Part shown: in pieces, positions 40,001-64,000 of the stretch
Position numbering within the stretch: position 1 is the stretch's first letter
Layout of the letters: the number at the start of each line of letters is the position of its first letter
Assembly (NCBI GenBank): GCA_029558535.1
Contig: JAKQEK010000328.1
Span: 1-64,000, forward strand
DNA from: Bacteroidota bacterium
GTDB lineage: Bacteria; Bacteroidota; Bacteroidia; Bacteroidales; ML635J-15
Direction: 5' to 3'
Length of the DNA stretch: 64,000 nt
Position numbers and translations under genes: made by a program
The notes under the pieces: generated by a model
What the model was told of the DNA's origin: nothing
The model's database searches: none
The model's input: the letters and a program-made list of their open reading frames with translations, nothing else

Positions 40001-43000
40001 AACCTCAGTGCTGTTTCTCCGGGCGGGACATGGTCAGGTAATGGAATTACAAACGCTTCAACCGGAACATTTAATCCCGGTACTGCAAATCCGGGTATAT
40101 GGACAATTACTTATAATGTAGTTAACGGACAATGCTCCGATTCTGATACAGAAAATATTACCGTAGATTCATATCCAAATTCAAATTGGACTGCAATAGG
40201 CCCATTTTGCGAAACAGACCCTCCTGTTGCAATACTCCCTGCTTCTGTTGGTGGTACATGGAGTGGAACAGGTGTAAATCCTGTAACGGGTGTATTTTTC
40301 CCTGGCATAGCACAAGGCGGTACTCATAACATTACATATACAATAGTAAACGGAGCTTGTACTTCTGCGACTACCAAGCCTGTTGTTGTTTATGATGATG
40401 TTGATGCCACAATTAGTCCTGCAGGACCATTTTGTGTAAATGACCCGCAGGTTACTTTGGTTGCAGCCGATCCGGGCGGAACATGGAGTGGACAAGGTAT
40501 TGTACCTCCATCAACTGCCGGAACATTCTCACCTGCTGGAGCAACCCCTGGCTCCTGGGTTATTACATATTCAATAGTTAATGGAGAATGCTCCGATTCT
40601 GATACTGAAACTATTCTGGTTTATGACTTTATAAGTGCTGAGTGGAACGCTGCCGGTCCTTTCTGCTCAAGTGACCCTGCTGTAAATCTTGTCCCAATAA
40701 ACCCGGGTGGAACATGGAGCGGAGTTGGAATTATTAATCCAGTTAATGGCACCTTTAATCCGGGTGGAGCAGGTGGGGGTATTCATGATATATGTTATAC
40801 TATTGTCAACGGTGCTTGTACGGATGTAATTTGTAAACCAATAATTGTTTACGATGAAGCAGATGCAACAATAACCAGTCCAGGGCCTTTTTGCGAGGCT
40901 CAAATTCCTGTAATACTTACAGCAGCAGATCCAGGGGGAACCTGGAGTGGTGCTTGGGTTAATCCGTCCACAGGGCAATTCAATCCCCCTGCTCCTGGAA
41001 CTTATGCAATCACTTACTCAATAAATGTGGGAGCATGTTCTGATTCAGATACAAGAAATATTGTTGTTGATTTGTATCCCAATTCTGCAATCACTCCTGC
41101 AGGACCTTTCTGTCAGACAGATCCTCCGGTTAACCTTACAGCAGCAACAGGTGGAGGAACGTGGAGCGGACAGGGAATAACTAATCCTTCTAACGGAACA
41201 TTTAACCCGTTTTTAATTAATGGCGGAAATCCTGTGATTACTTATACATTAGTTAATGGAGCCTGCACATCAATTAGTAACACAGTTATACATGTAGATG
41301 CTTTGGTTGATGCAACCATAACACCCGACGGTCCATTTTGCGAATTTGATCCTGCAGTCTTTCTTCATGCAGTAAGCCAGGGTGGAACATGGAGCGGAGT
41401 TGGCGTAGCAGGAAACATGTTTGATCCATTTGTTGCAGGACTAGGTCCTCACACTATTGGATACGTTGTCATTAATGGTTTATGTAACGACTCTGATACG
41501 GAATTATTCATGGTGTATGAGAATGCTGATGCCACCATTAATGGCCCTGTTGGTCCTTTCTGTTCAAATGATCCAGCGGTTATTCTTACAGCAGCGACTG
41601 CAGGTGGAACATGGAGCGGTCCGGGTGTAAATCCTGCTACAGGTCTATTTACTCCATCTACAGCAGGTCCCGGAAATCATATTATAACTTATCAGGTTAC
41701 AATTGGAACTTGCAATGATGTAGATAATATTATTATTCACGTTGATGCGGCTGTTAATGCAACAATAACTCCTGCTGGACCATTCTGTTTGTATGATCCT
41801 CAGGTTAACCTATCAGCAGTTTCACCGGGAGGTTATTGGGAGGGCCCCGGTATTATCCAACATCAATTCGGCACTTTTAATCCCACAGCAGCAACAGTAG
41901 GAGTACACAATATTACATATTTTGTTCAAAATGGAGTTTGTTCTGATATTGATGATATAGATATAATCGTAAATGATGCTCCTAATGGTACTATTAATGA
42001 TCCGGGAGATTTTTGTGCCAATGATCCTGCTGTTACTTTAACTGCAGCTACTCCGGGTGGGACATGGTCGGGGACAGGGATTACAGATCCAAATCTGGGT
42101 ATTTTTAATCCTTTATTTGCAAATGCAGGCGAAAATAACGTTTGTTATTCTATAAGCAATGGCCCTTGTACTACAGTTCAATGTATTTCAATATACGTTT
42201 ATGATGATGTTGCAGATGCTACAATTACCAGTGTAGGACCATATTGTGTCAGTGATGGCGCGATTACACTTACAGCAGTTACACCCGGTGGAACATGGTC
42301 GGGAGATGGCGTTATCGGGGATTTGTTTTATCCTTCTATTTTACCCCCAGGAAATTACATAATAACTTATAATGTAGGAAACTTAGCTTGTGCAGATTCC
42401 GATTCAGAGATAATACATGTTGACGACACCTTAAGTGCTATTATAAATCCTGCAGGACCGTTCTGCGAATCAGACGCAGCGGTTTTAATGACAGCTGCAA
42501 ATGTTGGCGGAGTTTGGTCGGGACCTGGGATTACCCCAGCAGGAACTTTTACCCCTTCAATTGCCGGTGGTGGGGATCATGTAATAACATATACAATTTC
42601 TCAGGGTGCCTGTACCAATGTTGATGATTTTACTGTTCATGTAGATTCGGAAGTAGATGCAACAATAACTGCTGCAGGACCATTCTGTAATACAGGTCTT
42701 ATACAGACATTAACAGCAGTAAGTCCGGGCGGAACCTGGAGTGGACCGGGCATTGTTGATCCTGTGGTAGGATATTTCCATCCCGGAAACGCAGGAGGAG
42801 GAAATCATAATATCTGTTATACAGTAACTAACGGATTATGCTCTGACAGCGATTGTAGAATTGTACATGTAGATGTTTACCCGAATACAACAATAACTCC
42901 TGCAGGACCTTTCTGCGTTAATGATCCCGAACTTGATTTAACTGCTGCAACACCGGGCGGGACATGGAGTGGACCTGGTATTATTTATCCTAGTGTTGGG

Positions 43001-46000
43001 ACATTTGATCCGGGCACTGCATTAGCGGGAAATCATACTATTACTTACCAATTAATTGTTGGTGCATGTACAAGCACTTCAACAACCAGCATACATGTTG
43101 ACGGGGTATTTGATGCTACTATTAGCCCGGCAGGACCTTTCTGCGAGAACGAAGACACTTTGGTACTTACTGCTGCAACACCCGGAGGCGTTTGGTCAGG
43201 ACCCGGTATTGTATTTAATATTTATGATGGAATTTTCCATCCAGGACAAGCCGGAATAGGTGATGTAGTAATTGGATACACAACAGTAAACGGAGAATGC
43301 GGTGATTACGCCGAAATTACAATTCATATTGATGAATATTTTGACGCAACTATAACACCTGCGGGTCCATTCTGTCAGAATGAAGCTGATTTGTTTTTAA
43401 CGGCAGTTGATCCGGGAGGAATTTGGAGCGGATACGGTATTAGCGACCCGTGGAATGGAAAATTTAGCCCCTCTCTAGCCGGAGAAGGTATCCACATTAT
43501 TACTAACATTATTACTAATGGCGCTTGTACTTCAACCGATACCGAAACAATTCAGGTAGATTCTTTAATTGCTCTACAAATAACTCCTGCAGGACCTTTC
43601 TGTGAAAATCATGCGGAAGTTACCCTTGTTGCAAATCATCCAAATGTAATTTGGGATGGACAGGGTATAACAAATGCCACACTTGGGATATTTACTCCCA
43701 TTGTTGCAGGGCCCGGAGATCATTTTATTGACATAGAATTAACAAATGGAGTTTGTACCTCAACAGATACTGAAATAATTCATGTAGATGCATTCCCAGA
43801 TACTATGTTAGATCCGGTAGGTCCGTTTTGTGAAAACGATGCTGCAGTTGATTTAGTAGAGCCAAGCCCGGGAGGTATCTGGAGTGGCCCGGGAATTACC
43901 GCACCAATGCTTGGAACCTTTGATCCGTTTTTTGCTCAAGAAGGTACTCATAACATTTGTTATACTATAATAAATGGAGAATGTACATCTTTTGACTGCA
44001 TTGATATTGAGGTACATGACGGAGTAGATGCAACAATTACATCTGTTGGTCCATTCTGCTATGGAGTAGATCCCTCTTTATTTTTAACTGCATCTACTCC
44101 GGGTGGAACCTGGTCGGGTCCGGGGATTATCAATGCTGTAACAGGGTTGTTTAATCCAAACATAGCCAATGTTGGAAGTCATATTATTTGCTATTCTGTA
44201 TTAAATGGCTTGTGTTCGGATAATGACTGTATTACAATTGTTGTTGAATCAAGCCCTGATGCTACAATATTAACTACTGGTCCATTCTGCGAAATGGACG
44301 GAAATCAAATATTTACAGCAGCCACACCAGGAGGTGTCTGGAGCGGTCCGGGCATAGGTCTGGACGGCAATTTTAACCCATACGTAGCAACTCCAGGCAC
44401 ACATACTTTTGATTATACTGTTAGTGTTGGCTCCTGTACTTCAACAGATCAGGTAACTATAGTGGTTGATGAGTTTTTCGATGCAGAAATAACAAGCTTA
44501 GGCCCATTCTGTATTTATGATAATCCAACACAACTTACCTCATTAAGTTCGGGAGGAATCTGGACGGGAACAGCAATAACTTACGGCGGACTTTTCAGCC
44601 CCGGTTCTGCAGGCATTGGAAATTGGCCAATAACACATTGTATTACTAACGGTTCATGTTCCGATTGTGACACAAAGATTATCAGCGTTTTCCAAAACCC
44701 GGACGCAACTATTACAGACGTAGCAAACATTTGTATCAGCACAGATGATTTTAATCTTATGGCAGCAACACCGGGTGGAATATGGAGTGGTAACGGAATT
44801 ACAGATACTGTTGCCGGAACATTTTCACCACAATCAGCAGGTCCCGGACCACATGTCATTACATATACGCTTAATATTAACGGCTGCAATGGTATTGATG
44901 AAACAACAATTACTGTTTATCCTTTGCCTGTAGTTACAATATCAAATTTAGAAACAGACTATTGTATTAATGAACCTTATGTTTATTTAACTGTTTCGCC
45001 GGGTGGTGGATTTTTAACAGGACATGGCATTAGCGGAACAATATTTAACCCTGCTGTTGCCGGTGTGGGTAATCATACAATAGTTTATACTTATTCGGAT
45101 ATACATTCTTGTACAGATAGTGCTGTTATAAATGTTGCAGTTCATGATCTGCCAAATGTCAGCATTTCCGGAATAGACCAATATTACTGTCGTTACGACG
45201 GAATTGTCAACCCTGTTATGCTGCCCGTTGGTGGTGTATTTGAAGGTGCCGGAACAAGCGGAGTATCTTTCTATCCACAGAATGCAGGAACAGGAACATG
45301 GGAACTTTTCTATCATTTTACAGATGTTTACAACTGTACTGACACCGCATACTTTACTACAACTGTGTTGACAAAAACAAATCCTAACTTCAATGTAGTA
45401 CAACCATCTTGTTTTGGTTATTCGGATGGTAGCATTTCGTCTCCTACTACCGGAGGATTACCACCTTACTATTATCATTGGAATACAACTCCACCGGCAG
45501 TTACTCCTAATATTACAAACATATCTGTGGGCTGGTATTATCTTACTACAACTGATCACAATGATTGTATTAGTGTTGACAGCATCGAAGTCACACAACC
45601 AACACCTGTAGCTGTTCAAATAACAGAAAGTACCGCTGCAAGTTGTCACGGATTTAGTAATGGGTCGGCTGTTGCTCAAGCCTCAGGCGGCACACCAAAT
45701 TACACATATTTATGGAGTAATCCTGCAGGAACGACATACGATCACGTATATGACCTCTCTGCCGGCCCATATACGGTAACTGCATACGATAGTCATAATT
45801 GCTCGGCAACAGCTTCTGTTGTAATCACAGAACCAGACACAATAAGTTTGGATTTTGTAAATTTAATAAATCCTAACTGCTATTCATATTGCGACGGAAC
45901 GGTTTCCGTTATTGCTCACGGTGGAACTCCTAACTATACTTATCAGTGGAATGATCCTGACGAAACTACCGAGCCTGTTGTCTCAAATTTATGTGATGGA

Positions 46001-47485
46001 GTATATAGAGTTACTGTAACAGACTCACATGGCTGTATTTTTATGGATGAAGTTGGAATGGTTGAACCCGATTCAATTTACTTCACGGCACTTATAAACC
46101 CTGTTATCTGTGCCAATCAGCTAGGGTCAGCAATAATAACAGTGTATGGAGGAACCTATCCATATTTTTATGAGTGGTCAACAGGAGAAGGAGGCCCGGG
46201 AATAGGCAATAAACCGGCAGGAATATACTGTGTTACAATTACAGATTCTCATAATTGTACATACGTGAATTGCATAGAAATTGGTACAATCGGAGACATT
46301 CACTCTGCGTTTACTCAAACTCAGGACAACCTCTGTTTTAAGGACGAAATTGCAGATATAGAAGCTTTTTCTGTTAACGGCGCAATCCCAATGGAATTCG
46401 AATGGTCTAATGGACCTACTACTTCTCAAAATAATAATCTGCCGGCTGGTTGGTACATTGTTACAATAACAGACAGCTGGGGATGTATTAAAGTGGATTC
46501 GACCTATGTTGACGAACCTGATGAAATACAAATTTCGATATTCTCCGAGAATGTAAAATGTAGAGGAGATCATACCGGAGTTGCAGGAATTACAGTTACA
46601 GGAGGAACTCCCGATTATCATCCTTTATGGCCAAACGGAGAAACGACTTTCTACACTATCACACTACCTGCCGGAACGATTTGGGTAACAGTAACAGATG
46701 ATAACGGTTGCATTGCAACTATGCCAACACTGATAACTCAACCAAGTGCAGAACTGTCGATTAACCTAAACATTACTCAGGTTAGTTGTTATGGGATTAA
46801 GGATGGCGTTATCAATGCATTTGCTGCAGGAGGGACTCCTTCATATTCATATTTCTGGAGTGTAGGTGGAGAAGTATTTACAGATCCAACTATAAGAAAC
46901 CTTGATGAGGGAGAATATTATCTTACAGTTGTTGATATAAATAACTGTGTCGCAGACACCGTTGTAAGGATAGCAAATCCTGCAATACTTGCAGCATCAT
47001 ATCTTGTTGGTCATCCAAGTTGTTTGGGTAATTATGATGGTTATATTCAGATGGCAACTTCCGGAGGTGTTCCACCATATTCATATTATCTGTTTAATGA
47101 CATTCCTGTTAATCATTTTATTGATTCTCTTTATGAAGGAGATTATTATGTTGTGGTAAGGGATTCGAATAGTTGTGCATTTGTAGCGGGACCAATAACA
47201 CTAGTTGATACGGACATAGACTGTCTAAAATTCCCAGTTGCCTTTAGCCCTAACGGTGATGGATATAATGACGAATGGTATATTGAAAATATTCATTTAT
47301 ATCCAAAATCGGTTGTTCAGATTTACAATCGCTGGGGACAACTGTTGTATGAAAAACGTGGAATTGAAGGATATTGGGACGGAATGTATAAAGGGAAACC
47401 TGTTCCGACCGGCGTATATTTGTACATGATAATACTCAATAATGACGAAGAAACACGAGCGGGAACAGTTACGGTTGTAAGATAG
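37025..47485 (+). CDS. Giant T9SS adhesin (3486 aa) with tandem GPFC domains and SprB repeats
   Basis: The order is: signal peptide (1-23); N-terminal domain; choice-of-anchor-L-like domain (about 186-395, GLDFAEGIILSSG, VFASEEYSEFIGG, NDVFGFFVSG); Calx-beta-like domain (about 420-510, GTATNGTDYSYL, EGPETLIITL); Ig/PKD-like domains (about 515-820); some 26 tandem domains of about 75 aa (823-2785), most starting ATITPAGPFC and containing GGTWSGPGI and an NGxC strand; eight SprB-type repeats (2786-3399, GGTPNYTYxW); and a CHU_C-type sorting domain (3400-3486, FSPNGDGYNDEW, VQIYNRWGQLLYE, PTGVYLYMI). SprB is the gliding adhesin of Flavobacterium. A long rod-like surface adhesin is likely. Translation is coupled to the upstream gene; a strong terminator follows. 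Confidence 0.9.
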   Translation: MKRINLHILFLLLFTSCYYIGVAQTNNLSKDFNSPTVIDYSIGDYYYSLNVSAGESTPLSFPACTRLYQPNNSFYTFTANNSGSFCLEHDFRDSINGGISLFTITNNQINEVYYTYFNTNLLKVNYSDINLAGQEIIAQIWFENPEFEALTHLKLKQYESSNNAKVPAIDIVHYTPEQLVTNVLFSGCLQATNVIYKGSLQSIGYFSNGIPGLDFAEGIILSSGKALDAAGPNNTGSKSSGMGTLGDANLTAMAGMITFDAAVLEFDFQPTGDTIYMEYVFASEEYSEFIGGAYNDVFGFFVSGGPEGYSSVNIAKVPGVDIPVCVNNVNSTTNSEYFVNNIGGVDIQYDGMTVTLTAKLAVTQCGNYHMKIAVADVGDNSYDTGVFLKAGSFVAESDVVMHNYSDWNLGNEIYEGCTNQLVFVRTNTTDLSNPMPVYISIGGTATNGTDYSYLHYTYTIPAGQPSITIPIEAFADGVTEGPETLIITLHNTCPCSTETISITLTILDEIIFSPTITASTPICEGESVTLGIYYSPQPDTVYVVWSNGVTGPSEITVQPSTTTTYTAMVHYPCDSVELSTTVTVYPMPVATASNDGPYCVGDPIHLFSSGGLTYRWRGPNFYMAFSQNPTINNAQLINAGTYQVTVTGLNGCKSIASTYVQVFPMPDFELNAPTPVCSGDPITFDIDTFPDYYYWGPNNWTSVDSFPTIPDADEIHEGWYHVIITDENFCRATDSIFIEVNPSPTATAWSNSPICEGETILLFSDGGPTYSWSGPDGFTSTQQNPTIPNATPANSGPYTITVENIYNCIDTETIDYIVYPTPDASFTNPGPLCIIDPNVTIVAATSGGTWTGTGIINASTGLYSPSGAGIGTWTVTHDLVENGCFGTYSDDIVVNEYLDASINPPAASYCADAAPFNLTATISGGVWSGTGITDPSSGIFNPSTAGAGNHLITYTLTNGACVDVNTVTVVVDALVDATITPAGPFCETGPAVNLSAVSPGGTWSGNGITNASTGTFNPGTANPGIWTITYNVVNGQCSDSDTENITVDSYPNSNWTAIGPFCETDPPVAILPASVGGTWSGTGVNPVTGVFFPGIAQGGTHNITYTIVNGACTSATTKPVVVYDDVDATISPAGPFCVNDPQVTLVAADPGGTWSGQGIVPPSTAGTFSPAGATPGSWVITYSIVNGECSDSDTETILVYDFISAEWNAAGPFCSSDPAVNLVPINPGGTWSGVGIINPVNGTFNPGGAGGGIHDICYTIVNGACTDVICKPIIVYDEADATITSPGPFCEAQIPVILTAADPGGTWSGAWVNPSTGQFNPPAPGTYAITYSINVGACSDSDTRNIVVDLYPNSAITPAGPFCQTDPPVNLTAATGGGTWSGQGITNPSNGTFNPFLINGGNPVITYTLVNGACTSISNTVIHVDALVDATITPDGPFCEFDPAVFLHAVSQGGTWSGVGVAGNMFDPFVAGLGPHTIGYVVINGLCNDSDTELFMVYENADATINGPVGPFCSNDPAVILTAATAGGTWSGPGVNPATGLFTPSTAGPGNHIITYQVTIGTCNDVDNIIIHVDAAVNATITPAGPFCLYDPQVNLSAVSPGGYWEGPGIIQHQFGTFNPTAATVGVHNITYFVQNGVCSDIDDIDIIVNDAPNGTINDPGDFCANDPAVTLTAATPGGTWSGTGITDPNLGIFNPLFANAGENNVCYSISNGPCTTVQCISIYVYDDVADATITSVGPYCVSDGAITLTAVTPGGTWSGDGVIGDLFYPSILPPGNYIITYNVGNLACADSDSEIIHVDDTLSAIINPAGPFCESDAAVLMTAANVGGVWSGPGITPAGTFTPSIAGGGDHVITYTISQGACTNVDDFTVHVDSEVDATITAAGPFCNTGLIQTLTAVSPGGTWSGPGIVDPVVGYFHPGNAGGGNHNICYTVTNGLCSDSDCRIVHVDVYPNTTITPAGPFCVNDPELDLTAATPGGTWSGPGIIYPSVGTFDPGTALAGNHTITYQLIVGACTSTSTTSIHVDGVFDATISPAGPFCENEDTLVLTAATPGGVWSGPGIVFNIYDGIFHPGQAGIGDVVIGYTTVNGECGDYAEITIHIDEYFDATITPAGPFCQNEADLFLTAVDPGGIWSGYGISDPWNGKFSPSLAGEGIHIITNIITNGACTSTDTETIQVDSLIALQITPAGPFCENHAEVTLVANHPNVIWDGQGITNATLGIFTPIVAGPGDHFIDIELTNGVCTSTDTEIIHVDAFPDTMLDPVGPFCENDAAVDLVEPSPGGIWSGPGITAPMLGTFDPFFAQEGTHNICYTIINGECTSFDCIDIEVHDGVDATITSVGPFCYGVDPSLFLTASTPGGTWSGPGIINAVTGLFNPNIANVGSHIICYSVLNGLCSDNDCITIVVESSPDATILTTGPFCEMDGNQIFTAATPGGVWSGPGIGLDGNFNPYVATPGTHTFDYTVSVGSCTSTDQVTIVVDEFFDAEITSLGPFCIYDNPTQLTSLSSGGIWTGTAITYGGLFSPGSAGIGNWPITHCITNGSCSDCDTKIISVFQNPDATITDVANICISTDDFNLMAATPGGIWSGNGITDTVAGTFSPQSAGPGPHVITYTLNINGCNGIDETTITVYPLPVVTISNLETDYCINEPYVYLTVSPGGGFLTGHGISGTIFNPAVAGVGNHTIVYTYSDIHSCTDSAVINVAVHDLPNVSISGIDQYYCRYDGIVNPVMLPVGGVFEGAGTSGVSFYPQNAGTGTWELFYHFTDVYNCTDTAYFTTTVLTKTNPNFNVVQPSCFGYSDGSISSPTTGGLPPYYYHWNTTPPAVTPNITNISVGWYYLTTTDHNDCISVDSIEVTQPTPVAVQITESTAASCHGFSNGSAVAQASGGTPNYTYLWSNPAGTTYDHVYDLSAGPYTVTAYDSHNCSATASVVITEPDTISLDFVNLINPNCYSYCDGTVSVIAHGGTPNYTYQWNDPDETTEPVVSNLCDGVYRVTVTDSHGCIFMDEVGMVEPDSIYFTALINPVICANQLGSAIITVYGGTYPYFYEWSTGEGGPGIGNKPAGIYCVTITDSHNCTYVNCIEIGTIGDIHSAFTQTQDNLCFKDEIADIEAFSVNGAIPMEFEWSNGPTTSQNNNLPAGWYIVTITDSWGCIKVDSTYVDEPDEIQISIFSENVKCRGDHTGVAGITVTGGTPDYHPLWPNGETTFYTITLPAGTIWVTVTDDNGCIATMPTLITQPSAELSINLNITQVSCYGIKDGVINAFAAGGTPSYSYFWSVGGEVFTDPTIRNLDEGEYYLTVVDINNCVADTVVRIANPAILAASYLVGHPSCLGNYDGYIQMATSGGVPPYSYYLFNDIPVNHFIDSLYEGDYYVVVRDSNSCAFVAGPITLVDTDIDCLKFPVAFSPNGDGYNDEWYIENIHLYPKSVVQIYNRWGQLLYEKRGIEGYWDGMYKGKPVPTGVYLYMIILNNDEETRAGTVTVVR
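39491..45379 (+). repeat. Tandem array of about 26 coding repeats (GPFC domains, about 226 nt each)
   Basis: Units share the protein pattern DATITPAGPFC, GGTWSGPGI, F-[ND]-P and NGxC. The first 24 are clear and the last two are divergent. Each has one Cys after GPF and one in the NGxC strand, probably a disulfide. Nucleotide copies are well diverged, so the array is old and not easily misassembled. Confidence 0.9.
45380..47221 (+). repeat. Eight SprB-type coding repeats
   Basis: Each unit of about 77 aa carries C-[FYHR]-G, GG-x-P-x-Y-x-Y-x-W and a Y-x-[LV]-T-[VI]-x-D-x-x-x-C strand, as in SprB repeats of gliding-motility adhesins. Confidence 0.85.
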
Positions 47486-51340: not shown

Positions 51341-53743
51341 TTAAATTTTTGTCCTTATAGCTTTTAAACTTGGCAGTTCTTTACCTTCAATATATTCAAG
51401 CAATGCACCTCCAGCAGTTGATACGTAGCTAATTTTGTGTGCCATCCCGTATTTATTTAAAGCGGCAATACTGTCGCCACCACCTACTAAAGAAAATGCG
51501 CCAAAATCTGTAGATCTCGAAACTGCTAATGCAATCTTTATTGTCCCATTACAAAAATGATCCATTTCGAATACGCCCATTGGTCCATTCCACAATAGTG
51601 TATTTGATTTTTCAATTACTTTAGCAAATGTTTCTGCGGTCTTAATGCCTATATCCAAGCCTTTCCAACCATCAGGAATTTCATTGATTTTACAATGTTT
51701 AATTTTTGCATCATTATCGAATTTATCTGCAATTATGCAATCAATTGGCAAATATAGTTTTACATCTGTTTTTAAGGCTTGTTCCATAATTTTTGTGGCG
51801 ACAGGGATATAGTCTTCTTCAACCAGCGAATCTCCAACGTTTCCTCCCATAGCTTTAATAAAAGTAAAGGCTATCCCACCACCAATAATTAAATTGTCAA
51901 CTTTTTCCATTAAAGCACGGATAATGTCTATCTTTGTCGAGACTTTAGATCCTCCAACAATTGCAGTAAATGGTCTTTCTCCCTTGTACAATACTCTGTT
52001 TATATTATTAATCTCACTTTCGACGAGATACCCTAACATTTTATCTTCGGGGAAATATTTAGCAATCATATATGTTGATGCGTGTGCCCTGTGGGCTGTT
52101 CCAAAAGCATTCATAATATATACATCACCCAAAGATGCCAGTTCTCCTGCAAATTTTTCATCGTTTTTCTCCTCTAAAGGATTAAACCTTAAGTTCTCAA
52201 GAATCATAACATCACCCGGCTTAAGTTTTTTAGACATCTCTTTAGCCTCAGCACCTACGCAATCAGGGGCAAATTTAACATCTGTATCAAGTATTTTTGA
52301 TAAATATGGAACTATGTGTTTAATTGAATACTTCTCTTCATAAGCTCCCTTAGGTCTTCCCAAATGTGTCATAAGAATGATTGAACCTCCATCAGAAATA
52401 ATTTTTCTACAGGTTGGAATAGCGGTTCTTATTCTGGTGTCATCTGTAATATTAAAACTTTTGTCTAGCGGAACATTAAAATCTACTCTGATAAGCACTC
52501 TTTTCCCATAAAAGTTATAATCATCCACACTAAAAGACTGTTTAATCGCTTTAATCGCAGGAAGATTTCTTTTTTCAATATACTCCAACAATGCTCCACC
52601 GGCAGAACTTAAATACGAAATTTTATGAGCCAAACTATATTTATTTAATGCAGCAATAGTATCCCCGCCTCCAACAACTGAAAAAAGTCCTTTATCAGTA
52701 GCGCGTGCAACCGATAATGCCATTTTTAACGTACCGTATGAAAAGTGAGACAATTCGTACATTCCAAGAGGCCCGTCCCACAACAAAGTTTTAGATTCCT
52801 CTATAACTTCTGCAAAAATATCAACAGTTTTAATCCCAATATCCAAAGCTTTCCAACCTTCAGGGATTTCAGAAAAATCACAATGCTCTATATTAGCATC
52901 ATTCCCATCTTTATCTGCTATTATACAATCGACTGGCAAATAGATTTTTACATTAAAGCTTTCAGCATTTTTTAGAATCCTTTTTGCAGTATCAATACAA
53001 GACTCTTCAACCAAAGAATTTCCTACTTTATATCCCAATGCTTTAGCAAAAGTAAAAGCAATCCCCCCACCTATCAGCAAATTGTCTATTTTAGGGAGCA
53101 ATGCTTCTACAATACTTATCTTTGTGGTAACTTTATCACCCCCTATTAAAAGGGTAAATGGTTTTTCGGAACTTTTAATAAGTTTATCCAATTTTTTCAT
53201 TTCCCCCTCAACAACATACCCAAACATTTTGTCATAAGGGAAAAACTTAGCCAGAGTAACTGTAGATGCATGATTTCTGTGTGCTGTACCAAAAGCATCA
53301 TTTACATAACAATCGCCTAAAGCAGCAAGTTTTTCGGCAAACTTTTCGTCTGCATTAATTTCTTCTTTGAAAAATCTTATATTTTCCAGAAGCATTATTT
53401 GTCCGCTTTTCAAATTTGTGGCCAATTCTAATGTCTTTTGGGACAATGGGTCTTCGCAAAAAATAACAGGCTTTCCAATGAGTTTTTCAATCAATGGTAA
53501 TATATGAATTAGCGATCTGGATTTAATATGTTCGCCTTTTGGACGTCCCCAGTGAGTAATGAGAATTATAGATGCACCTTCAGATAATAATTTCTGAATT
53601 GTTGGCAAAGACATTTTTATTCTGGTATCATCAAGTGTATATGAATCTTTGTTCAGAAAAATATCACTAGTTATGGGTATGTTATAATCAACTCTTAATA
53701 ATACCCTTTTGTCTTTAAAGCTATAATTATCTAAATTGTTCAT
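51341..53743 (-). CDS. pgk: Tandem fusion of two phosphoglycerate kinases
   Basis: A single 800-aa frame holds two full PGK copies (about 1-403 and 404-800); ordinary PGK is about 390-420 aa. Copy 1 has RVDYNIP, THWGRPKG, LLENIRF, NDAFGTAHRNHAS, GGDKVTTKI, LLWDGPLG and VVGGGDT. Copy 2 has RVDFNVP, THLGRPKG, ILENLRF, MNAFGTAHRAHAS, GGSKVSTKI, LLWNGPMG and LVGGGDS. Both keep the main substrate Arg/His and nucleotide residues, so both could be active; copy 1 departs more from consensus (HWGRP, WDGPLG). Both read DIGI for DIGP and AGGA for GGGA, showing duplication from one ancestor. PGK makes ATP from 1,3-bisphosphoglycerate in glycolysis. The copies are too diverged to be an assembly duplicate. 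Confidence 0.95.
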   Translation of the reverse strand: MNNLDNYSFKDKRVLLRVDYNIPITSDIFLNKDSYTLDDTRIKMSLPTIQKLLSEGASIILITHWGRPKGEHIKSRSLIHILPLIEKLIGKPVIFCEDPLSQKTLELATNLKSGQIMLLENIRFFKEEINADEKFAEKLAALGDCYVNDAFGTAHRNHASTVTLAKFFPYDKMFGYVVEGEMKKLDKLIKSSEKPFTLLIGGDKVTTKISIVEALLPKIDNLLIGGGIAFTFAKALGYKVGNSLVEESCIDTAKRILKNAESFNVKIYLPVDCIIADKDGNDANIEHCDFSEIPEGWKALDIGIKTVDIFAEVIEESKTLLWDGPLGMYELSHFSYGTLKMALSVARATDKGLFSVVGGGDTIAALNKYSLAHKISYLSSAGGALLEYIEKRNLPAIKAIKQSFSVDDYNFYGKRVLIRVDFNVPLDKSFNITDDTRIRTAIPTCRKIISDGGSIILMTHLGRPKGAYEEKYSIKHIVPYLSKILDTDVKFAPDCVGAEAKEMSKKLKPGDVMILENLRFNPLEEKNDEKFAGELASLGDVYIMNAFGTAHRAHASTYMIAKYFPEDKMLGYLVESEINNINRVLYKGERPFTAIVGGSKVSTKIDIIRALMEKVDNLIIGGGIAFTFIKAMGGNVGDSLVEEDYIPVATKIMEQALKTDVKLYLPIDCIIADKFDNDAKIKHCKINEIPDGWKGLDIGIKTAETFAKVIEKSNTLLWNGPMGVFEMDHFCNGTIKIALAVSRSTDFGAFSLVGGGDSIAALNKYGMAHKISYVSTAGGALLEYIEGKELPSLKAIRTKI

Positions 53744-57881: not shown

Positions 57882-58217
57882 ATGAACATTTTTATCGGAA
57901 GCTTACCTTACTCTGTTAAGGATAGCGATTTACAAGGATTCTTCGAGGAGTACGGAGAAGTTAGTTCTGCACGAGTAATAAAAGACAAAATGACAGGCAG
58001 AAGCAAAGGTTTTGGTTTTGTTGAGATGGCTGATGAGGCTGCAGCAAAAAAAGCAATTGAAGAATTGAACGGAGCGGAACTCGAAGGTCGCACAATAGTA
58101 GTTAATGAAGCTCAGGAAAAAACTGAGAGAAAACCAGGCGGAGGCGGAAGAAGCTTTGGCGGAAATTCCGGTGGCGGACAAAGAAGAGGCGGAAGCGGTT
58201 ACGGAAGAAACAACTAA
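57882..58217 (+). CDS. RNA-binding protein, single RRM with Gly/Arg-rich tail
   Basis: A 111-aa protein with one RRM: RNP2 IFIGSLPY near the start and RNP1 KGFGFVEM near 46-53, then a Gly/Arg/Ser-rich tail (about 85-111, GGGGRSFGGNSGGGQRRG). It resembles cold-induced Rbp proteins of Bacteroidota and cyanobacteria that bind mRNA. It is monocistronic with a long leader region, common in cold-responsive genes; temperature control is inferred only. Confidence 0.92.
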   Translation: MNIFIGSLPYSVKDSDLQGFFEEYGEVSSARVIKDKMTGRSKGFGFVEMADEAAAKKAIEELNGAELEGRTIVVNEAQEKTERKPGGGGRSFGGNSGGGQRRGGSGYGRNN

Positions 58218-58352
58218 TACTTCAGTATAATCTTATCCCTACTGATTTATTAATTAATCAGACTATTTATTCTTTTGCATAATATGCTTGATTTATCAGG
58301 CATAGTTTTGCTATTAATTATAGTTAATAAGTTGCAATAATCAAAACTTCTA

Positions 58353-58427
58353 CCGGAGTAGGATGTTTTTGTCATAAAATTCGCATCCCCCGGCAAAAGG
58401 CAAACCTTTGGCAAATTTTCCGCCAAA
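58353..58427. repeat. Two adjacent inverted repeats upstream of the ferritin-like gene
   Basis: The first pairs CCGG plus GGATG (58353-58365) with CATCC plus CCGG (58384-58393), with an internal loop. The second pairs TTTGGC (58407-58412) with GCCAAA (58422-58427). This stretch is richer in GC than its surroundings and repeats GGCAAA. No gene is seen in 58218-58493. Confidence 0.45.
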
Positions 58428-58463
58428 AACCTTAATCTATTTTCATAATCACACCATTTTTTT

Positions 58464-58471
58464 TATATTTG
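58464..58471 (+). promoter_or_regulatory. Bacteroidota -7 element before the ferritin-like gene
   Basis: TATATTTG followed by C, 22 nt before the ATG at 58494. Confidence 0.6.
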
Positions 58472-58493
58472 CATAAACTAAAACAAAATAGCT

Positions 58494-59006
58494 ATGGGAA
58501 AACATGCAGTAAAAATTTCGAATTTAGACACAGAAAAACTTATTCTAATGCTAAACGAAGCATTGGCAGAAGAATGGCTCGCTTACTATCAATACTGGGT
58601 TGGAGCAAAAGTTATGGAAGGTCCTATGCGTAGCGAAATTGAGCCGGAACTAATCGTACATGCCACAGAAGAATTGGCACACGCTGAACTGGTAGCTGGA
58701 AGAATAATTCAGCTTGGTGGAACACCATTGTTGAATCCTGATCAATGGAAAAAATTTGCAAAATGTGATTATGAAGAACCAACAGACCCTTATGTTGAAG
58801 TAATCCTAGAACAGAATCTGCGTGGCGAAAGATGTGCTATTCAGCGTTACCAGGATATTGCAGAATATACTGCAGGCAAAGACCATGCAACACATCAAAT
58901 GGCTGTTCAGATTATGAATGATGAACTGGAACACGAAGAAGATATCGAAGCCTGGATTAATGATCTGGAAGTAATGAAAGAAAATTTTAAGAAGTTACGA
59001 ATGTAA
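58494..59006 (+). CDS. Dps-like / thioferritin-type ferritin-like protein
   Basis: A 170-aa four-helix-bundle protein with diiron ligands in helices 1 (LAEEWLAYYQY), 2 (EELAH, Glu60/His63), 3 (EQNLRGERC) and 4 (DELEHEED, Glu144/His147). Two cysteines, Cys91 and Cys114, lie near the third helix. This places it with Dps-like thioferritins rather than classical bacterioferritin (no heme Met signature seen). Such proteins form cages that oxidise and store iron while removing peroxide, fitting an anaerobe exposed to oxygen. It is transcribed alone, with its own promoter and terminator. Confidence 0.82.
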   Translation: MGKHAVKISNLDTEKLILMLNEALAEEWLAYYQYWVGAKVMEGPMRSEIEPELIVHATEELAHAELVAGRIIQLGGTPLLNPDQWKKFAKCDYEEPTDPYVEVILEQNLRGERCAIQRYQDIAEYTAGKDHATHQMAVQIMNDELEHEEDIEAWINDLEVMKENFKKLRM

Positions 59007-59033
59007 AAAATAAATATTTAAAACCTTTAATTT

Positions 59034-59070
59034 TCCTGATTTCTGTTGTTAGTAGTAACAGAAGTCAGGA
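59034..59070 (+). terminator. Rho-independent terminator after the ferritin-like gene
   Basis: A 14-position stem (59034-59047 with 59057-59070, TCCTGA and TTCTGTT arms, one T/G mismatch), 9-nt loop, followed by a T-rich run (TTATTTTTTAA). Confidence 0.82.
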
Positions 59071-59153
59071 TTATTTTTTAATATATAATAACATAAAAAT
59101 TGATTATTAAAATCCTTTAAAAATCAAAATTTGGAAAGTTTGCCTTATACATA

Positions 59154-59161
59154 TATATTTG
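59154..59161 (+). promoter_or_regulatory. Bacteroidota -7 element that decides the ileS start
   Basis: TATATTTG followed by C, 22 nt before the ATG at 59183. The longer frame from 59159 would begin inside this element. Confidence 0.6.
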
Positions 59162-59182
59162 CGGGTTATTTTAATAGATGAT

Positions 59183-62100
59183 ATGATGAATAAGAAATTT
59201 GCAGAATACAAGCAACTTGATTTGGCGAAAATAAATACCTCTGTGGAGAAATTGTGGGAAAAGGAGAACACTTTTGCAAAAAGCATTGAAACAAGAAAAG
59301 ATAATAAGCCTTTTGTGTTTTTTGAAGGACCTCCTTCGGCAAATGGTACGCCTGGCATTCATCATGTTATGGCAAGAACTATTAAAGATGTGGTTTGTCG
59401 TTACAAAACCTTATCAGGTTTTCGCGTGGACAGAAAAGCCGGTTGGGATACTCATGGCCTTCCGGTTGAATTAAGCGTTGAAAAGTCACTGGGAATAACC
59501 AAAGAAGATATTGGCAAAAAAATTTCTGTAAAAGAATACAACAACACTTGTCGTACCGAGGTAATGAAATATACCGACCAGTGGGAAAAACTGACCGAGC
59601 AAATGGGTTATTGGGTTGATATGAACAACCCATATATCACTTATGATAATCGCTATATTGAAACTGTCTGGCATTTGTTAAAAAAACTTTTTGATAAAGG
59701 ATTACTGTATAAGGGATATACAATTCAGCCATATTCTCCTGCTGCAGGAACAGGTTTAAGTACACACGAGCTTAACCAGCCCGGTTGTTATCGTGATGTC
59801 AAAGACACTACTGCCGTTTCTTTGTTTAAAGTTATCAGAAACACCAAATCTGAAAAGTATTTTGCAGACATTGAAACTCCCCTATTTATTATTGCCTGGA
59901 CAACGACTCCATGGACACTGCCTTCAAATACAGCTTTAGCTGTTGGTCCTAATATCAAATATGTCAGAGTAAAAACATTCAATCCATACTCGGGCAATCC
60001 TATCACAATAGTTTTATGCAAAGATAGGGTTTCTGCATATTTTAAAACTGAAAGTCAAAATGCTGATTTTCATGAATATAAACAAGGGGATAAAAATATT
60101 CCATGGCAAATCCTAGACGAGTTTTCGGGCAAAGATATTGTAGGGCTAGAATATGAACAGTTAATTGACTGGATCAAGCCAAAATCTCCTGCTTTCAGAG
60201 TTATCCCGGGCGATTACGTTACGACCGAAGACGGAACCGGCATAGTACATATTGCTCCAACATTTGGTGCAGACGATGCAAGAGTTGCCAAAGTGGCTGG
60301 AATTCCTGCACTTATCCTTGACGACAAAGACGGTAATATGTGTCCTATGGTGGATAAACAGGGAAAGTTTTTCGAAATCAAGGAATTACATCCCGATTTT
60401 GTAAAGAATTTTGTAAACATCGAAACATATACCGAATTCGCCGGAAAATATGTAAAAAACGAATATGACCCAAACGCCGAAGGCAAGGAAACCTCAACAG
60501 ATATTGATATTGCTGTAATGTTAAAGCAGCAAGATAAAGCCTTCCGTATCGAAAAACATATTCATAATTACCCACATTGCTGGCGTACCGACAAACCGAT
60601 TTTATATTATCCGCTAGATTCGTGGTTTATTAAGACAACAGCAGTAAAAGAACGTTTGATTGAGTTGAATAAAACGATAAACTGGAAACCTGCAAGTACA
60701 GGTGAAGGTCGTTTCGGTAAATGGCTTGAAAATCTTGTTGATTGGAACCTCAGTCGTTCGAGATTTTGGGGTACGCCATTACCTATCTGGAGCACAGAAG
60801 ATGGCAATGAACGTAAATGTATCGGTTCGGTGGCAGAATTAATGGAAGAAATTAAAAAATCTGTCGCTAAGGGGTGTATGAAGGCTGATTTTTGGAAAGG
60901 ATTTGTACCCGAAAATTTTTCGGCAGAAAATTATGAGAAAATTGATTTGCATCGTCCCGATGTTGACGAAATTGTACTAGTTGCCTCTGACGGAAAGAAA
61001 ATGTTTCGTGAACCAGACCTTATTGATGTTTGGTTTGATTCAGGAGCAATGCCTTATGCTCAGTGGCACTGGCCCTTCGAAAATGCTGAAAATTTTGATA
61101 AACTTTTTCCTGCCGATTTTATTGCTGAAGGTGTTGACCAAACCAGAGGATGGTTTTTTACTCTTCATGCAATTTCGACAATGATATCCGATTCTGTTTC
61201 TTATAAAAACATTATTTCTAACGGCTTAGTTCTCGACAAGGACGGAAACAAAATGTCTAAACGTCTTGGAAATGCTGTAGATCCTTTTCTTGCTATCGAA
61301 AAATATGGTTCAGATGCTGTTCGCTGGTACATGATTACAAATGCCCAAGCCTGGGACAATCTTAAGTTTGATTGGACTATAGAAAAGGATATCTCGATTA
61401 ATATTGATAAATGTACCGGGTGTGGTGTTTGTGAAAAATCTGCAAGTACGATATTCAAGATCGATAATCAAAAATCAACGGTGATAAACGGAGAAAAGGA
61501 TGTCCAATCAGCTATGGAAACAAAAAAGCTATGTCCAGTTGATGCAATTAATATTGTAAGTTACAAAAATGAATGGATAAAAGTGTTAAAGGAAAATGGA
61601 AATGTAGAATTTCATTACTCTGACAGTATTATCGAAGTGCAACGAAAGTTCTTCGGTACACTATACAATACCTATAATTTCTTTGCATTATATGCTAATA
61701 TTGACCAATTCCGTTATAGCGAAAATGATATTGATTTTGATAAACGTCCCGAACTGGATAAGTGGATTTTAAGCTTACTTAATTCACTTATAAAAGATGT
61801 GAAAAACTGTTACGAAAACTATGAAAACACAAAAGCTGGAAGGTTAATTCAGGATTTTGTGATAGATCATTTAAGCAATTGGTTTGTACGTCTTGGAAGA
61901 AAACGCTACTGGGGAGGAGAATATTCGGAAGACAAAATATCTGCATATCAGACTCTTTATACTTGCCTTATAAATATAGCCAAAATAGCCTCACCGATTG
62001 CTCCGTTTTATATGGATAGGCTATACAGAGATTTAATTTCGGTAACAGGCAAGGAAGAATTTGAATCCGTGCATCTGTCATATTTCCCTGTTGCTGAAGA

Positions 62101-62869
62101 AAAGTTTATTGACATCGCATTGGAGGAAAGAATGCAATTGGCTCAGACCATTTCTTCGATGATACTTAGTCTGCGTCGTAAAGTCAGCATTAAAGTAAGG
62201 CAACCCTTACAGAAAATCATGATTCCGATAATTTCAGACAACTTTGTTGAACAAATACAAAAAGTTCAACATATAATTATGACAGAAACTAATATTAAAG
62301 AAATTGAATTTTTATCTGACAGCTCTGAAATACTTGTCAAAAAGATTAAAGCAAACTTTAAAGTACTTGGACCAAAATACGGAAAGATAATGAAACAAGT
62401 GTCTGAGGCAATAATGGCAATGTCACAAAAAGATATTGCAAAACTTGAGAAAGAATCAAAATTTAATATCAAAGCCGAGGGTCAGGAAATCACAATTACA
62501 ACAGAAGATGTTGAAATAATATCTGAAGATATCCCGGGATGGCTTGTGGCAAACGAAGGCAAAATAACTGTGGCTCTTGATATTAATGTAACACCCGAAT
62601 TAATTGCTGAAGGTATTGCCAGAGAATTTGTAAACAGAATTCAAAATTTACGCAAAGAAAGCGGCTTTGATGTAACTGATAAAATAAATATTTTTATCAT
62701 ATCCCATCCCGATCTAGACACTGCCATTACAGAGTTTAGAGAGTATATATGCTCTCAAACATTAGCAAATTCAATAAAAATTATTAACAAAACGGAACAA
62801 AATAATTATGTTGTCGTAGAAGTTAATAATTTTGAAACTCAATTGCGAGTTGAAAGGTGTATTAATTAA
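59183..62869 (+). CDS. ileS: Isoleucyl-tRNA synthetase with inserted ferredoxin-like domain
   Basis: A class I aminoacyl-tRNA synthetase of about 1228 aa. The HIGH-type motif lies in PSANGTPGIHHV, followed by WDTHGLPVE and the editing domain (about 200-420, WTTTPWTLPSNTALAVG), then DQTRGWFFTLH and KMSKR in DKDGNKMSKRLGN. After WDNLKFD, where relatives pass directly into EVQRKFFGTLYNTY, about 85 residues are inserted (61373-61627). They carry a C-x2-C-x2-C ... CP motif (Cys744, 747, 750, 784), as in single-cluster [4Fe-4S] ferredoxins. The anticodon-binding and C-terminal domains follow intact. It charges tRNA-Ile with isoleucine. The insert is in frame and all synthetase motifs are kept. dksA follows 12 nt later. 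Confidence 0.95.
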   Translation: MMNKKFAEYKQLDLAKINTSVEKLWEKENTFAKSIETRKDNKPFVFFEGPPSANGTPGIHHVMARTIKDVVCRYKTLSGFRVDRKAGWDTHGLPVELSVEKSLGITKEDIGKKISVKEYNNTCRTEVMKYTDQWEKLTEQMGYWVDMNNPYITYDNRYIETVWHLLKKLFDKGLLYKGYTIQPYSPAAGTGLSTHELNQPGCYRDVKDTTAVSLFKVIRNTKSEKYFADIETPLFIIAWTTTPWTLPSNTALAVGPNIKYVRVKTFNPYSGNPITIVLCKDRVSAYFKTESQNADFHEYKQGDKNIPWQILDEFSGKDIVGLEYEQLIDWIKPKSPAFRVIPGDYVTTEDGTGIVHIAPTFGADDARVAKVAGIPALILDDKDGNMCPMVDKQGKFFEIKELHPDFVKNFVNIETYTEFAGKYVKNEYDPNAEGKETSTDIDIAVMLKQQDKAFRIEKHIHNYPHCWRTDKPILYYPLDSWFIKTTAVKERLIELNKTINWKPASTGEGRFGKWLENLVDWNLSRSRFWGTPLPIWSTEDGNERKCIGSVAELMEEIKKSVAKGCMKADFWKGFVPENFSAENYEKIDLHRPDVDEIVLVASDGKKMFREPDLIDVWFDSGAMPYAQWHWPFENAENFDKLFPADFIAEGVDQTRGWFFTLHAISTMISDSVSYKNIISNGLVLDKDGNKMSKRLGNAVDPFLAIEKYGSDAVRWYMITNAQAWDNLKFDWTIEKDISINIDKCTGCGVCEKSASTIFKIDNQKSTVINGEKDVQSAMETKKLCPVDAINIVSYKNEWIKVLKENGNVEFHYSDSIIEVQRKFFGTLYNTYNFFALYANIDQFRYSENDIDFDKRPELDKWILSLLNSLIKDVKNCYENYENTKAGRLIQDFVIDHLSNWFVRLGRKRYWGGEYSEDKISAYQTLYTCLINIAKIASPIAPFYMDRLYRDLISVTGKEEFESVHLSYFPVAEEKFIDIALEERMQLAQTISSMILSLRRKVSIKVRQPLQKIMIPIISDNFVEQIQKVQHIIMTETNIKEIEFLSDSSEILVKKIKANFKVLGPKYGKIMKQVSEAIMAMSQKDIAKLEKESKFNIKAEGQEITITTEDVEIISEDIPGWLVANEGKITVALDINVTPELIAEGIAREFVNRIQNLRKESGFDVTDKINIFIISHPDLDTAITEFREYICSQTLANSIKIINKTEQNNYVVVEVNNFETQLRVERCIN
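61373..61627 (+). other. Ferredoxin-like [4Fe-4S] insertion within IleRS
   Basis: About 85 codons. Core: ISINIDKCTGCGVCEKSAS, an acidic/polar middle, then KKLCPVDAINIVS, the order of a one-cluster bacterial ferredoxin. A further 20 or so residues (KNEWIKVLKENGNVEF) look like extra beta strands. It sits between the catalytic KMSKR region and the anticodon-binding helical domain. Confidence 0.85.
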
Positions 62870-62881
62870 AAAATTAGGACT

Positions 62882-63268
62882 ATGAGTGCAGAAGAAGAAA
62901 AAACCAGATACAGCTATGAGGAGCTGCAGGAATTCAAGGAAATAATCCTGAAAAAACTCGAAAAAGCACAAAAAGATTATGAGCTTTACAGGAGTATGTT
63001 AAGTCATGAAGATACCAACGACATTATGGATACCTCCCCAACATTTAAGGTTCTTGAAGAAGGCGCAAATGTATTGTCGAAAGAAGAAATCGGAAAGATT
63101 GCCCAACGCCAGCTTAAGTTTATTCAACATTTACAAGCTGCTCTGGTAAGAATAGAAACAGGTACTTATGGGGTATGTCGAGAAACCGGTAAGCTAATCG
63201 CTAAAGAAAGGCTCAGAGCGGTTCCACATGCTACATTAAGTATGGATGCAAAAATGAATAGAAAATAA
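62882..63268 (+). CDS. dksA: DksA/TraR family regulator
   Basis: A 128-aa protein with a long coiled-coil N-terminal half (about 8-95) and the C-terminal globular segment GTYGVCRETGKLIAKERL followed by RAVPHATLSM. Only one Cys of the zinc finger remains, as I recall for Bacteroidota members. DksA-like proteins bind the secondary channel of RNA polymerase and tune stable-RNA and stress promoters. It lies 12 nt after ileS, a neighbourhood conserved in the phylum, where lspA often follows; lspA is absent here. Confidence 0.9.
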   Translation: MSAEEEKTRYSYEELQEFKEIILKKLEKAQKDYELYRSMLSHEDTNDIMDTSPTFKVLEEGANVLSKEEIGKIAQRQLKFIQHLQAALVRIETGTYGVCRETGKLIAKERLRAVPHATLSMDAKMNRK

Positions 63269-63288
63269 AAAAGAGAGAGAGTACTAAT

Positions 63289-63319
63289 AAAATTGCCTGA
63301 AAACAACTCAGGCAATTTT
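63289..63319 (+). terminator. Rho-independent terminator after dksA
   Basis: A 12-bp perfect stem (63289-63300 with 63308-63319, core ATTGCCTGA / TCAGGCAAT), 7-nt loop, then a T run. Confidence 0.9.
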
Positions 63320-63376
63320 TTTTCATAATATCAAAGCAATTAAGTTTGTATAATAAAAAAAGAGTCTGAATTTTCA

Positions 63377-63447
63377 AACAGATTTCTCAGCCTTCCTGCG
63401 TCAAGCTTCGAAATGACTATTGGTAGTGGTATATCGAGAAATCTGTT
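63377..63447. repeat. REP-like palindromic element (12-bp perfect inverted repeat)
   Basis: AACAGATTTCTC (63377-63388) and GAGAAATCTGTT (63436-63447) are perfect inverted repeats around a 47-nt spacer with TTCGAAATGAC. This resembles small interspersed palindromic repeats found in many bacterial genomes. It abuts or slightly overlaps (from 63449) the end of the following minus-strand gene. Confidence 0.6.
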
Positions 63448-63448
63448 C

Positions 63449-64000
63449 TTATATTTTCTTTAGACTACTATAATCCAAATAATAAATCAATTTTAGGGAA
63501 AAACTATTAGCTTGAGCCTCCTGCCAGACATTCTTAAAACTCTCAAAATAATTCGGCATTTGCATTGATTCGGGAATATCACCAACAGCGAATATCTGAT
63601 TCTTCCACATTACAGATAAATAACTTCCCGGCAAGAAATTCCAAGACAATAAAAGATCAAAATTGAAAATATTAAAATTATAATCTCCCTCGAACTGGGA
63701 ATCAGGTCTTTCAGCTAAATTGCCATCTGTCAACAAATCAAAATACTTGTAATAATCGACTGTAGAAACATAATGCCTTAATTTAAATGTAGCCGATAAT
63801 TTATTGGTAAATACATATGAAAGATTTATGGTGTTTGTAACTGTTATAACATCCCTTTGACCGAATATTATTTTGCCGGCTGTACTCGTAAAATACCCTG
63901 AAGCACCATTGTCTATATCACCGGAAAATGTATATCTCAAACTAGTTCTTTTCCCAAATCTCACAATAGGGCTAATACTTCCCCAGAGACCTTGTCGTTC
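63449..64000 (-). CDS. C-terminal part of a DUF5916-like outer-membrane beta-barrel protein (5' end outside window)
   Basis: The minus-strand frame is open to the right edge and ends at 63449, giving about 183 residues. Alternating hydrophobic/polar strands with aromatic residues (KRTSLRYTFSGD, NTINLSYVFT, NFDLLLSWNFLPGSYLSVMW) and a final segment FSLKLIYYLDYS look like the last strands of a barrel. The pattern fits the C-terminal region of DUF5916 proteins, but the diagnostic N-terminal CBM9-like domain is outside. The internal GTG at 63964 is not the true start. Confidence 0.65.
   Translation of the reverse strand, partial: ERQGLWGSISPIVRFGKRTSLRYTFSGDIDNGASGYFTSTAGKIIFGQRDVITVTNTINLSYVFTNKLSATFKLRHYVSTVDYYKYFDLLTDGNLAERPDSQFEGDYNFNIFNFDLLLSWNFLPGSYLSVMWKNQIFAVGDIPESMQMPNYFESFKNVWQEAQANSFSLKLIYYLDYSSLKKI

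Follow-up and report, generated by a model that had tools for sequence, protein, structure and literature searches.

Near the right-hand end of the window, by which we mean the whole 64,000-nucleotide stretch of DNA analysed here, ileS encodes an isoleucyl-tRNA synthetase (IleRS) that carries 87 extra-domain codons between its catalytic core and its tRNA-binding part. The features of this region are listed below.

58494-59006, + strand: ferritin-like protein (PF00210), directly upstream of ileS
59183-62869 (stop included), + strand: ileS, type-2 IleRS with inserted domain, 1227-1228 amino acids (TIGR00392; 8c8w/8c8u, 1ile)
59186-61372, + strand: catalytic core with CP1/editing parts, ending in WDNLKFD (PF00133 to residue 727; 8c8w alignment to residue 630)
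61373-61633, + strand: inserted segment, 87 codons replacing a 5-codon loop (sequence, junction alignments)
61391-61555, + strand: predicted single-cluster ferredoxin core, insert residues 7-61 (PF13370; 1rof/1vjw match; weak model and PDB fold search)
61412-61432, + strand: C-x2-C-x2-C, first three predicted cluster ligands, Cys743/746/749 (motif, alignment)
61532-61537, + strand: Cys783-Pro, fourth predicted cluster ligand (motif, alignment)
61556-61633, + strand: 26-residue tail after the ferredoxin core, hairpin- or linker-like by eye (pLDDT <50)
61634-62866, + strand: C-terminal tRNA-binding part (Anticodon_1, DUF5915; PF08264 and PF19302)
62882-63268, + strand: DksA/TraR-type zinc-finger protein, a conserved neighbour (PF01258 above cut-off)

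Cysteines are numbered from the ATG at 59186; counted from the ATG at 59183, they become 744/747/750/784.

A preliminary description of this DNA had read ileS as a single open frame for a full synthetase, and our searches bear this out. The frame is open from a TTG at 59159 or the ATG at 59183 through 62869, and its product scored 948.1 bits against the IleRS equivalog TIGR00392, above the cut-off of 621.4. The catalytic, editing and tRNA-binding parts of a type-2 IleRS are all present (PF00133, PF08264 and PF19302). The nearest solved relatives are 8c8w (E = 2.7e-232) and 1ile (E = 1.6e-195); 1ffy, the S. aureus IleRS, which an excerpt of PMC10485003 assigns to type 1, matched at E = 1.3e-82. 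Judged by these matches, the ileS product is a complete type-2 IleRS and is predicted to charge tRNA-Ile. No second IleRS was found among the matches listed in the whole-enzyme search of this assembly, whose genome is 88% complete; four further matches there fell below listing strength. In the HIGH region (PGIHH) of the coding sequence (59186-62866), the class I signature reads G-I-H-H rather than H-x-G-H, as it also does in 12 of 12 aligned relatives; an excerpt of PMC10485003 links G/AxHH IleRS2 to mupirocin hyper-resistance.

The host enzyme is normally conserved and shows no clear relaxation or acceleration of rate. Only two of 414 alignment columns that are invariant in 27 relatives deviate in this IleRS: a Gly is replaced by Ser in the exchanged loop (as aligned), and one Tyr is replaced by Phe. 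This count leaves out L007 and L011, which have stops inside their frames. These stop codons interrupt ileS in two same-genus assemblies (G012 and G019, respectively), and G019 has a second, distant IleRS-like gene on C65 (34-53% identity over pieces). With G003 as the outgroup, this IleRS and that of its closest relative, G001, had 15 and 18 private changes, respectively, in the first part of the enzyme (P = 0.73) and 26 and 17 in the second (P = 0.22). Compared with G003, ileS has a dN of 0.10 and a dS of about 2.5, which is near saturation.

The insert begins directly after WDNLKFD (61352-61372) and ends before EVQRKFF (from 61634). The 87 codons between these motifs stand where relatives mostly have 5 residues (e.g., ISGVD), a net gain of 82 codons; a single loop was replaced, in frame and with no stop. 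An insert of about 85 residues had previously been placed at 61373-61627. Its presence after WDNLKFD holds, but the end was set two codons short, the true extent being 61373-61633. The cysteine codons begin at 61412, 61421, 61430 and 61532, and the resulting spacing, C-x2-C-x2-C-x33-C-P, agrees with the one-cluster ferredoxin order noted at the outset. The profile search suggested in the preliminary description returned the expected family: PF13370 (Fer4_13), titled '4Fe-4S single cluster domain of Ferredoxin I', matched the insert alone (61373-61627) with 34.9 bits (E = 2.6e-8) against a cut-off of 24.5, and it also passed this cut-off in the whole protein (29.3 bits). Among solved structures, the insert matches the ferredoxin of Thermotoga maritima best (1rof/1vjw, E = 5.1e-7). 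All four cysteines of the insert lie opposite cysteines of this ferredoxin in the alignment, which presumably are its cluster ligands. Because the insert is homologous to a solved ferredoxin, the four predicted ligands are likely to meet in space.

In composition, the insert resembles its surroundings. Its G+C content is 32%, compared with 34% for the window, and its codon usage falls at the 43rd percentile among 87-codon stretches of the same gene. No family in PADLOC or PHROGs matched the insert, simple patterns gave no promoter- or terminator-like sites in 61340-61680, and the insert had no clear target-site duplication, the surrounding repeats being short.

We then compared the insert with 17 aligned free ferredoxins, with which it shares 27-41% identity. 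Against a profile built from them it scored 48.4 bits, and 15 of the 17 outscored it when each was left out in turn (range for all 17, 31.4-110.2 bits). It also lacks the Pro found 2-4 residues before a conserved Phe in 16 of the 17, and its 26-residue tail is covered by none of them. By these comparisons, the insert has diverged from the free ferredoxins, either through its descent or through decay, and some decay is possible.

Structural modeling of the insert with its flanks gave a strand-helix-strand-helix-strand order at a weak mean pLDDT of 53.6, with the best ten-residue blocks at 72-81 and the tail below 50. The model was built with three ferredoxin rows, two-cluster by eye, which bias it toward a ferredoxin fold, so we treat it as supporting only. 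In a PDB fold search with this weak model, the top ten rows were ferredoxins or a model containing one, although none of the 123 rows to E = 10 reached E ≤0.001; the best match was P. furiosus ferredoxin (E = 4.6e-3, TM score of 0.72 by target length). A separate model of the IleRS joint (a 1040-residue fragment with four viral-contig homologues) had a mean pLDDT of 38.2 and was discarded.

The alignments place the insert at residues 630-632 of 8c8w/8c8u, as had been proposed when it was located at the link between the catalytic and tRNA-binding parts. We take 8c8w to be the P. megaterium IleRS2 of a published study. An excerpt of that study assigns residues 40-168 and 513-632 to the catalytic core, and the KMSKS numbering of 8c8w (Lys593) is consistent with it (PMC10485003). 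By this alignment, the join is the published edge of the type-2 IleRS catalytic core, before the tRNA-binding domain.

None of the relatives read at the junction has the domain. All 30 junctions read (29 loci of the whole-enzyme search described below plus that of G001) are plain loops. Counted from WDNLKF to the next RK or KK, 29 of these loops have 9 residues and that of G028 has 20; the same count gives 91 in the window. This agrees with the earlier statement that an IleRS normally carries no iron-sulfur cluster here. In the alignment proposed with it, the homologues had a short loop and no ordinary linker as long as the insert. The 20-residue loop (L012) belongs to another genus of the family and indicates that the site tolerates extra residues. 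In a whole-enzyme search of 61 genomes, matches ended near residue 729 and resumed near residue 815 wherever both flanks were listed; four genomes (G011, G027, G040 and G047) had no IleRS-grade match, and several had pieces only. A query spanning the junction matched 373 of 395 genomes of the class. Among the matches listed, one spanned the insert, namely this IleRS, and the others covered only query residues 1-41 to 1-43.

Searches with the insert alone (E ≤0.001, a level that might miss an insert that has changed greatly) matched 3 of 26 genomes in the genus, this one included, 3 of 31 in the family, 50 of 393 in the order and 11 of 395 in the phylum; these samples overlap. Among the matches listed for these 26-395 genomes, no ferredoxin lay in an IleRS-sized frame besides our own; the other frames had at most 656 residues, and most of those in the order search had 63-106. 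Within the relatives examined, the insert is seen in this genome only.

The closest relative, G001, has an IleRS 91% and 87% identical to this one in two pieces (dS of 1.7 and 1.4) and an insert-free loop, DMTGVDEVK. The simplest history is therefore an insertion on the branch leading to the present genome. No donor was found in phages or plasmids, nor, by peptide patterns, in viral contigs. A scan of genome contigs likewise gave no donor: in 22 of the 25 loci the match was confined to 14-18 residues near the first three cysteines, and by eye there was no IleRS frame among the frames printed. Loci L104 and L105-L110 were scanned but kept out of every alignment, and L145 was rejected as a chance match. 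The overlapping samples of 26, 31, 393 and 395 genomes gave no near donor, with best identities of at most 45% in the order and phylum searches, and the assembly itself showed no copy of the insert as a free gene. Among the 31 family genomes, strong free ferredoxins of this class occur in G019 and G020 only, and these are not close to the insert. The failure to find a near donor argues against a very recent insertion.

How long four cysteines would survive without selection was estimated by unconstrained drift simulation, started from the present insert with 300 runs per level and stops purged. All four were kept in 190, 135, 50, 26, 7, 0 and 3 of 300 runs at 0.05, 0.1, 0.2, 0.3, 0.5, 0.7 and 1.0 changes per site, respectively. 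The branch to this genome is about 0.7-0.85 changes per site long (half the synonymous distance to G001). Averaged over insertion times on a branch of about 0.8, the simulation puts the chance of survival without selection, by our own estimate, at roughly one in six. Simulated loss and branch depth together imply either a fairly young insertion or a domain maintained by selection. Because no donor was found, we somewhat favour selection. For a selection signal on the insert itself, the sample is one sequence.

The DksA-type neighbour scored 50.6 bits against the dksA equivalog TIGR02420, below the cut-off of 115.5. It had been proposed to feed a charging defect into transcription, but a DksA/TraR-type gene also lies directly after ileS in all three relatives without the insert whose surroundings we read (G003, G010 and G024), so its position has no special meaning for the insert. 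The ferritin-like gene is not upstream of ileS in these three genomes; that it links ileS to iron is speculation. No Rfam family reached its gathering score in 58000-63600.

Two other frames of the window are worth recording. At 51341-53743 (- strand), a frame of 800 residues appears by eye to hold two phosphoglycerate kinase domains in tandem. The frame matches over its full or nearly full length in several same-genus genomes (e.g., G003, 87%; G015, 85%; G024, 82%); in others the form is shorter, and most of its frames are about 640-650 residues long. At 37025-47485 (+ strand), a protein of 3486 residues contains many similar repeats (GPFC...PGGTWSG), and by eye its end resembles a gliding-motility or type IX sorted domain.

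Known systems resemble parts of this arrangement. One is the T. maritima tryptophanyl-tRNA synthetase (TrpRS), also a class I synthetase, whose tRNA-binding part bears a [4Fe-4S] site made of four cysteines; an excerpt of PMC2954223 gives the motif as C-x22-C-x6-C-x2-C and calls its role still not clear. That site, as the excerpt describes it, is built into the anticodon-binding domain, whereas here a whole ferredoxin domain sits at the domain joint of an IleRS, with spacing of x2, x2 and x33 in place of the TrpRS-type motif. The type-2 IleRS structures (8c8w; T. thermophilus 1ile) are full-length homologues with the same order of parts and the same junction, but the junction of 8c8w has no extra domain. 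Fer4_13 ferredoxins (T. maritima 1vjw and P. furiosus 1siz/2z8q) share the motif, and the weak model suggests a similar fold; they are free proteins of 59-66 residues, whereas here the domain forms part of an enzyme and is followed by a 26-residue tail. NCBIfam NF040702 is likewise an IleRS named for an extra domain, but that domain is an N-acetyltransferase, and the present IleRS scored 263 of 1999 bits, far below the cut-off. Titles and abstract openings of the open literature searched named no iron-sulfur IleRS, and a term search of the 2020 review PMC7373986 gave no occurrence of 'iron-sulfur', 'Fe-S' or '4Fe'.

From its sequence, the segment is most likely a real, lineage-specific insertion of a ferredoxin domain that would still be able to bind a cluster, and a role of the predicted cluster in bracing or gating tRNA charging is plausible. 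Single-cluster ferredoxins fold around their cluster, and their first strand lies next to their last. The two ends of the insert would thus meet at the loop, and the loaded domain could act as a brace. We propose that a single-[4Fe-4S] ferredoxin domain entered the loop joining the IleRS catalytic core to the tRNA-binding domain on this genome's branch, that it binds a cluster, and that the loaded domain would form a compact brace at the joint. Loss of the cluster through oxygen, iron shortage or oxidation would let the apo-domain unfold, loosen the joint and slow tRNA-Ile charging, and the enzyme would then be cluster-dependent, with the cluster as stabiliser or gate. We give this reading a probability of about 0.42. 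That the plug-in ferredoxin goes so far as to make isoleucine charging, and so translation, directly dependent on iron-sulfur cluster status seems unlikely. A rationale based on isoleucine supply, in which the cluster enzyme IlvD (dihydroxy-acid dehydratase) would tie supply to charging, was dropped because ilvD had no match here: TIGR00110 matched 14 of 14 control genomes but not this one (G000, 88% complete). The organism may be an isoleucine auxotroph or use a different route, or ilvD may lie in the 12% of the genome that is missing from the assembly.

The main rival comes close behind the brace or gate and is a serious, if less probable, possibility: a ferredoxin fragment tolerated in a permissive loop, perhaps binding a cluster, with no role in charging, which persists since deletions are rare and its fold does no damage. 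The longer loop of G028 (20 residues against 9 in the other 29 relatives) indicates that the site accepts extension, and such a passenger would also suit an insert seen in a single genome, scoring low against free ferredoxins, in a host enzyme without a significant change of rate. For a young insertion, it is not very improbable that the four cysteines survived in the absence of selection. A young insertion should, however, have a recognisable donor, and the best identities in the order and phylum searches did not exceed 45%. Ordinary codon usage (43rd percentile) fits an insertion of greater age, or else a donor with similar composition.

A ferredoxin domain that tethers IleRS to a redox partner, or takes electrons, while leaving charging ungated is improbable. 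The domain does fall among the single-cluster ferredoxins, and Rnf-like and other iron-sulfur proteins are encoded in the genome (by eye), but the neighbourhood suggests no partner, and we know of no redox chemistry in aminoacylation. We give equally little credence to an assembly chimera, in which ferredoxin-coding DNA was merged into ileS, and rate it less likely than a real insertion. The assembly is a draft of 513 contigs with 4.62% contamination and 88.45% completeness, and the insert stretch was not found in the other collections searched (phages, plasmids, viral contigs and genome contigs). A chimera would nevertheless need two frame-keeping joins that swap one loop, and the ferredoxin neither begins with a start codon nor ends with a stop. 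In codon usage the insert matches the gene, no free copy was found in the assembly, and the contig (109,525 bases) keeps the gene order downstream of ileS seen in G003.

Iron-sulfur synthetases are already known; what is new here is a ferredoxin domain within IleRS, as seen in one assembly. Should the brace or gate reading be true, protein synthesis in this organism could respond to iron, oxygen or redox state, and the insert-free close relative offers a ready control. If the cluster is bound and needed, nature would here have fitted an essential enzyme of translation with a redox or iron domain. The joint that links the IleRS core to its tRNA-binding part would then be a site that accepts a folded domain, which may be useful for engineering switchable synthetases.
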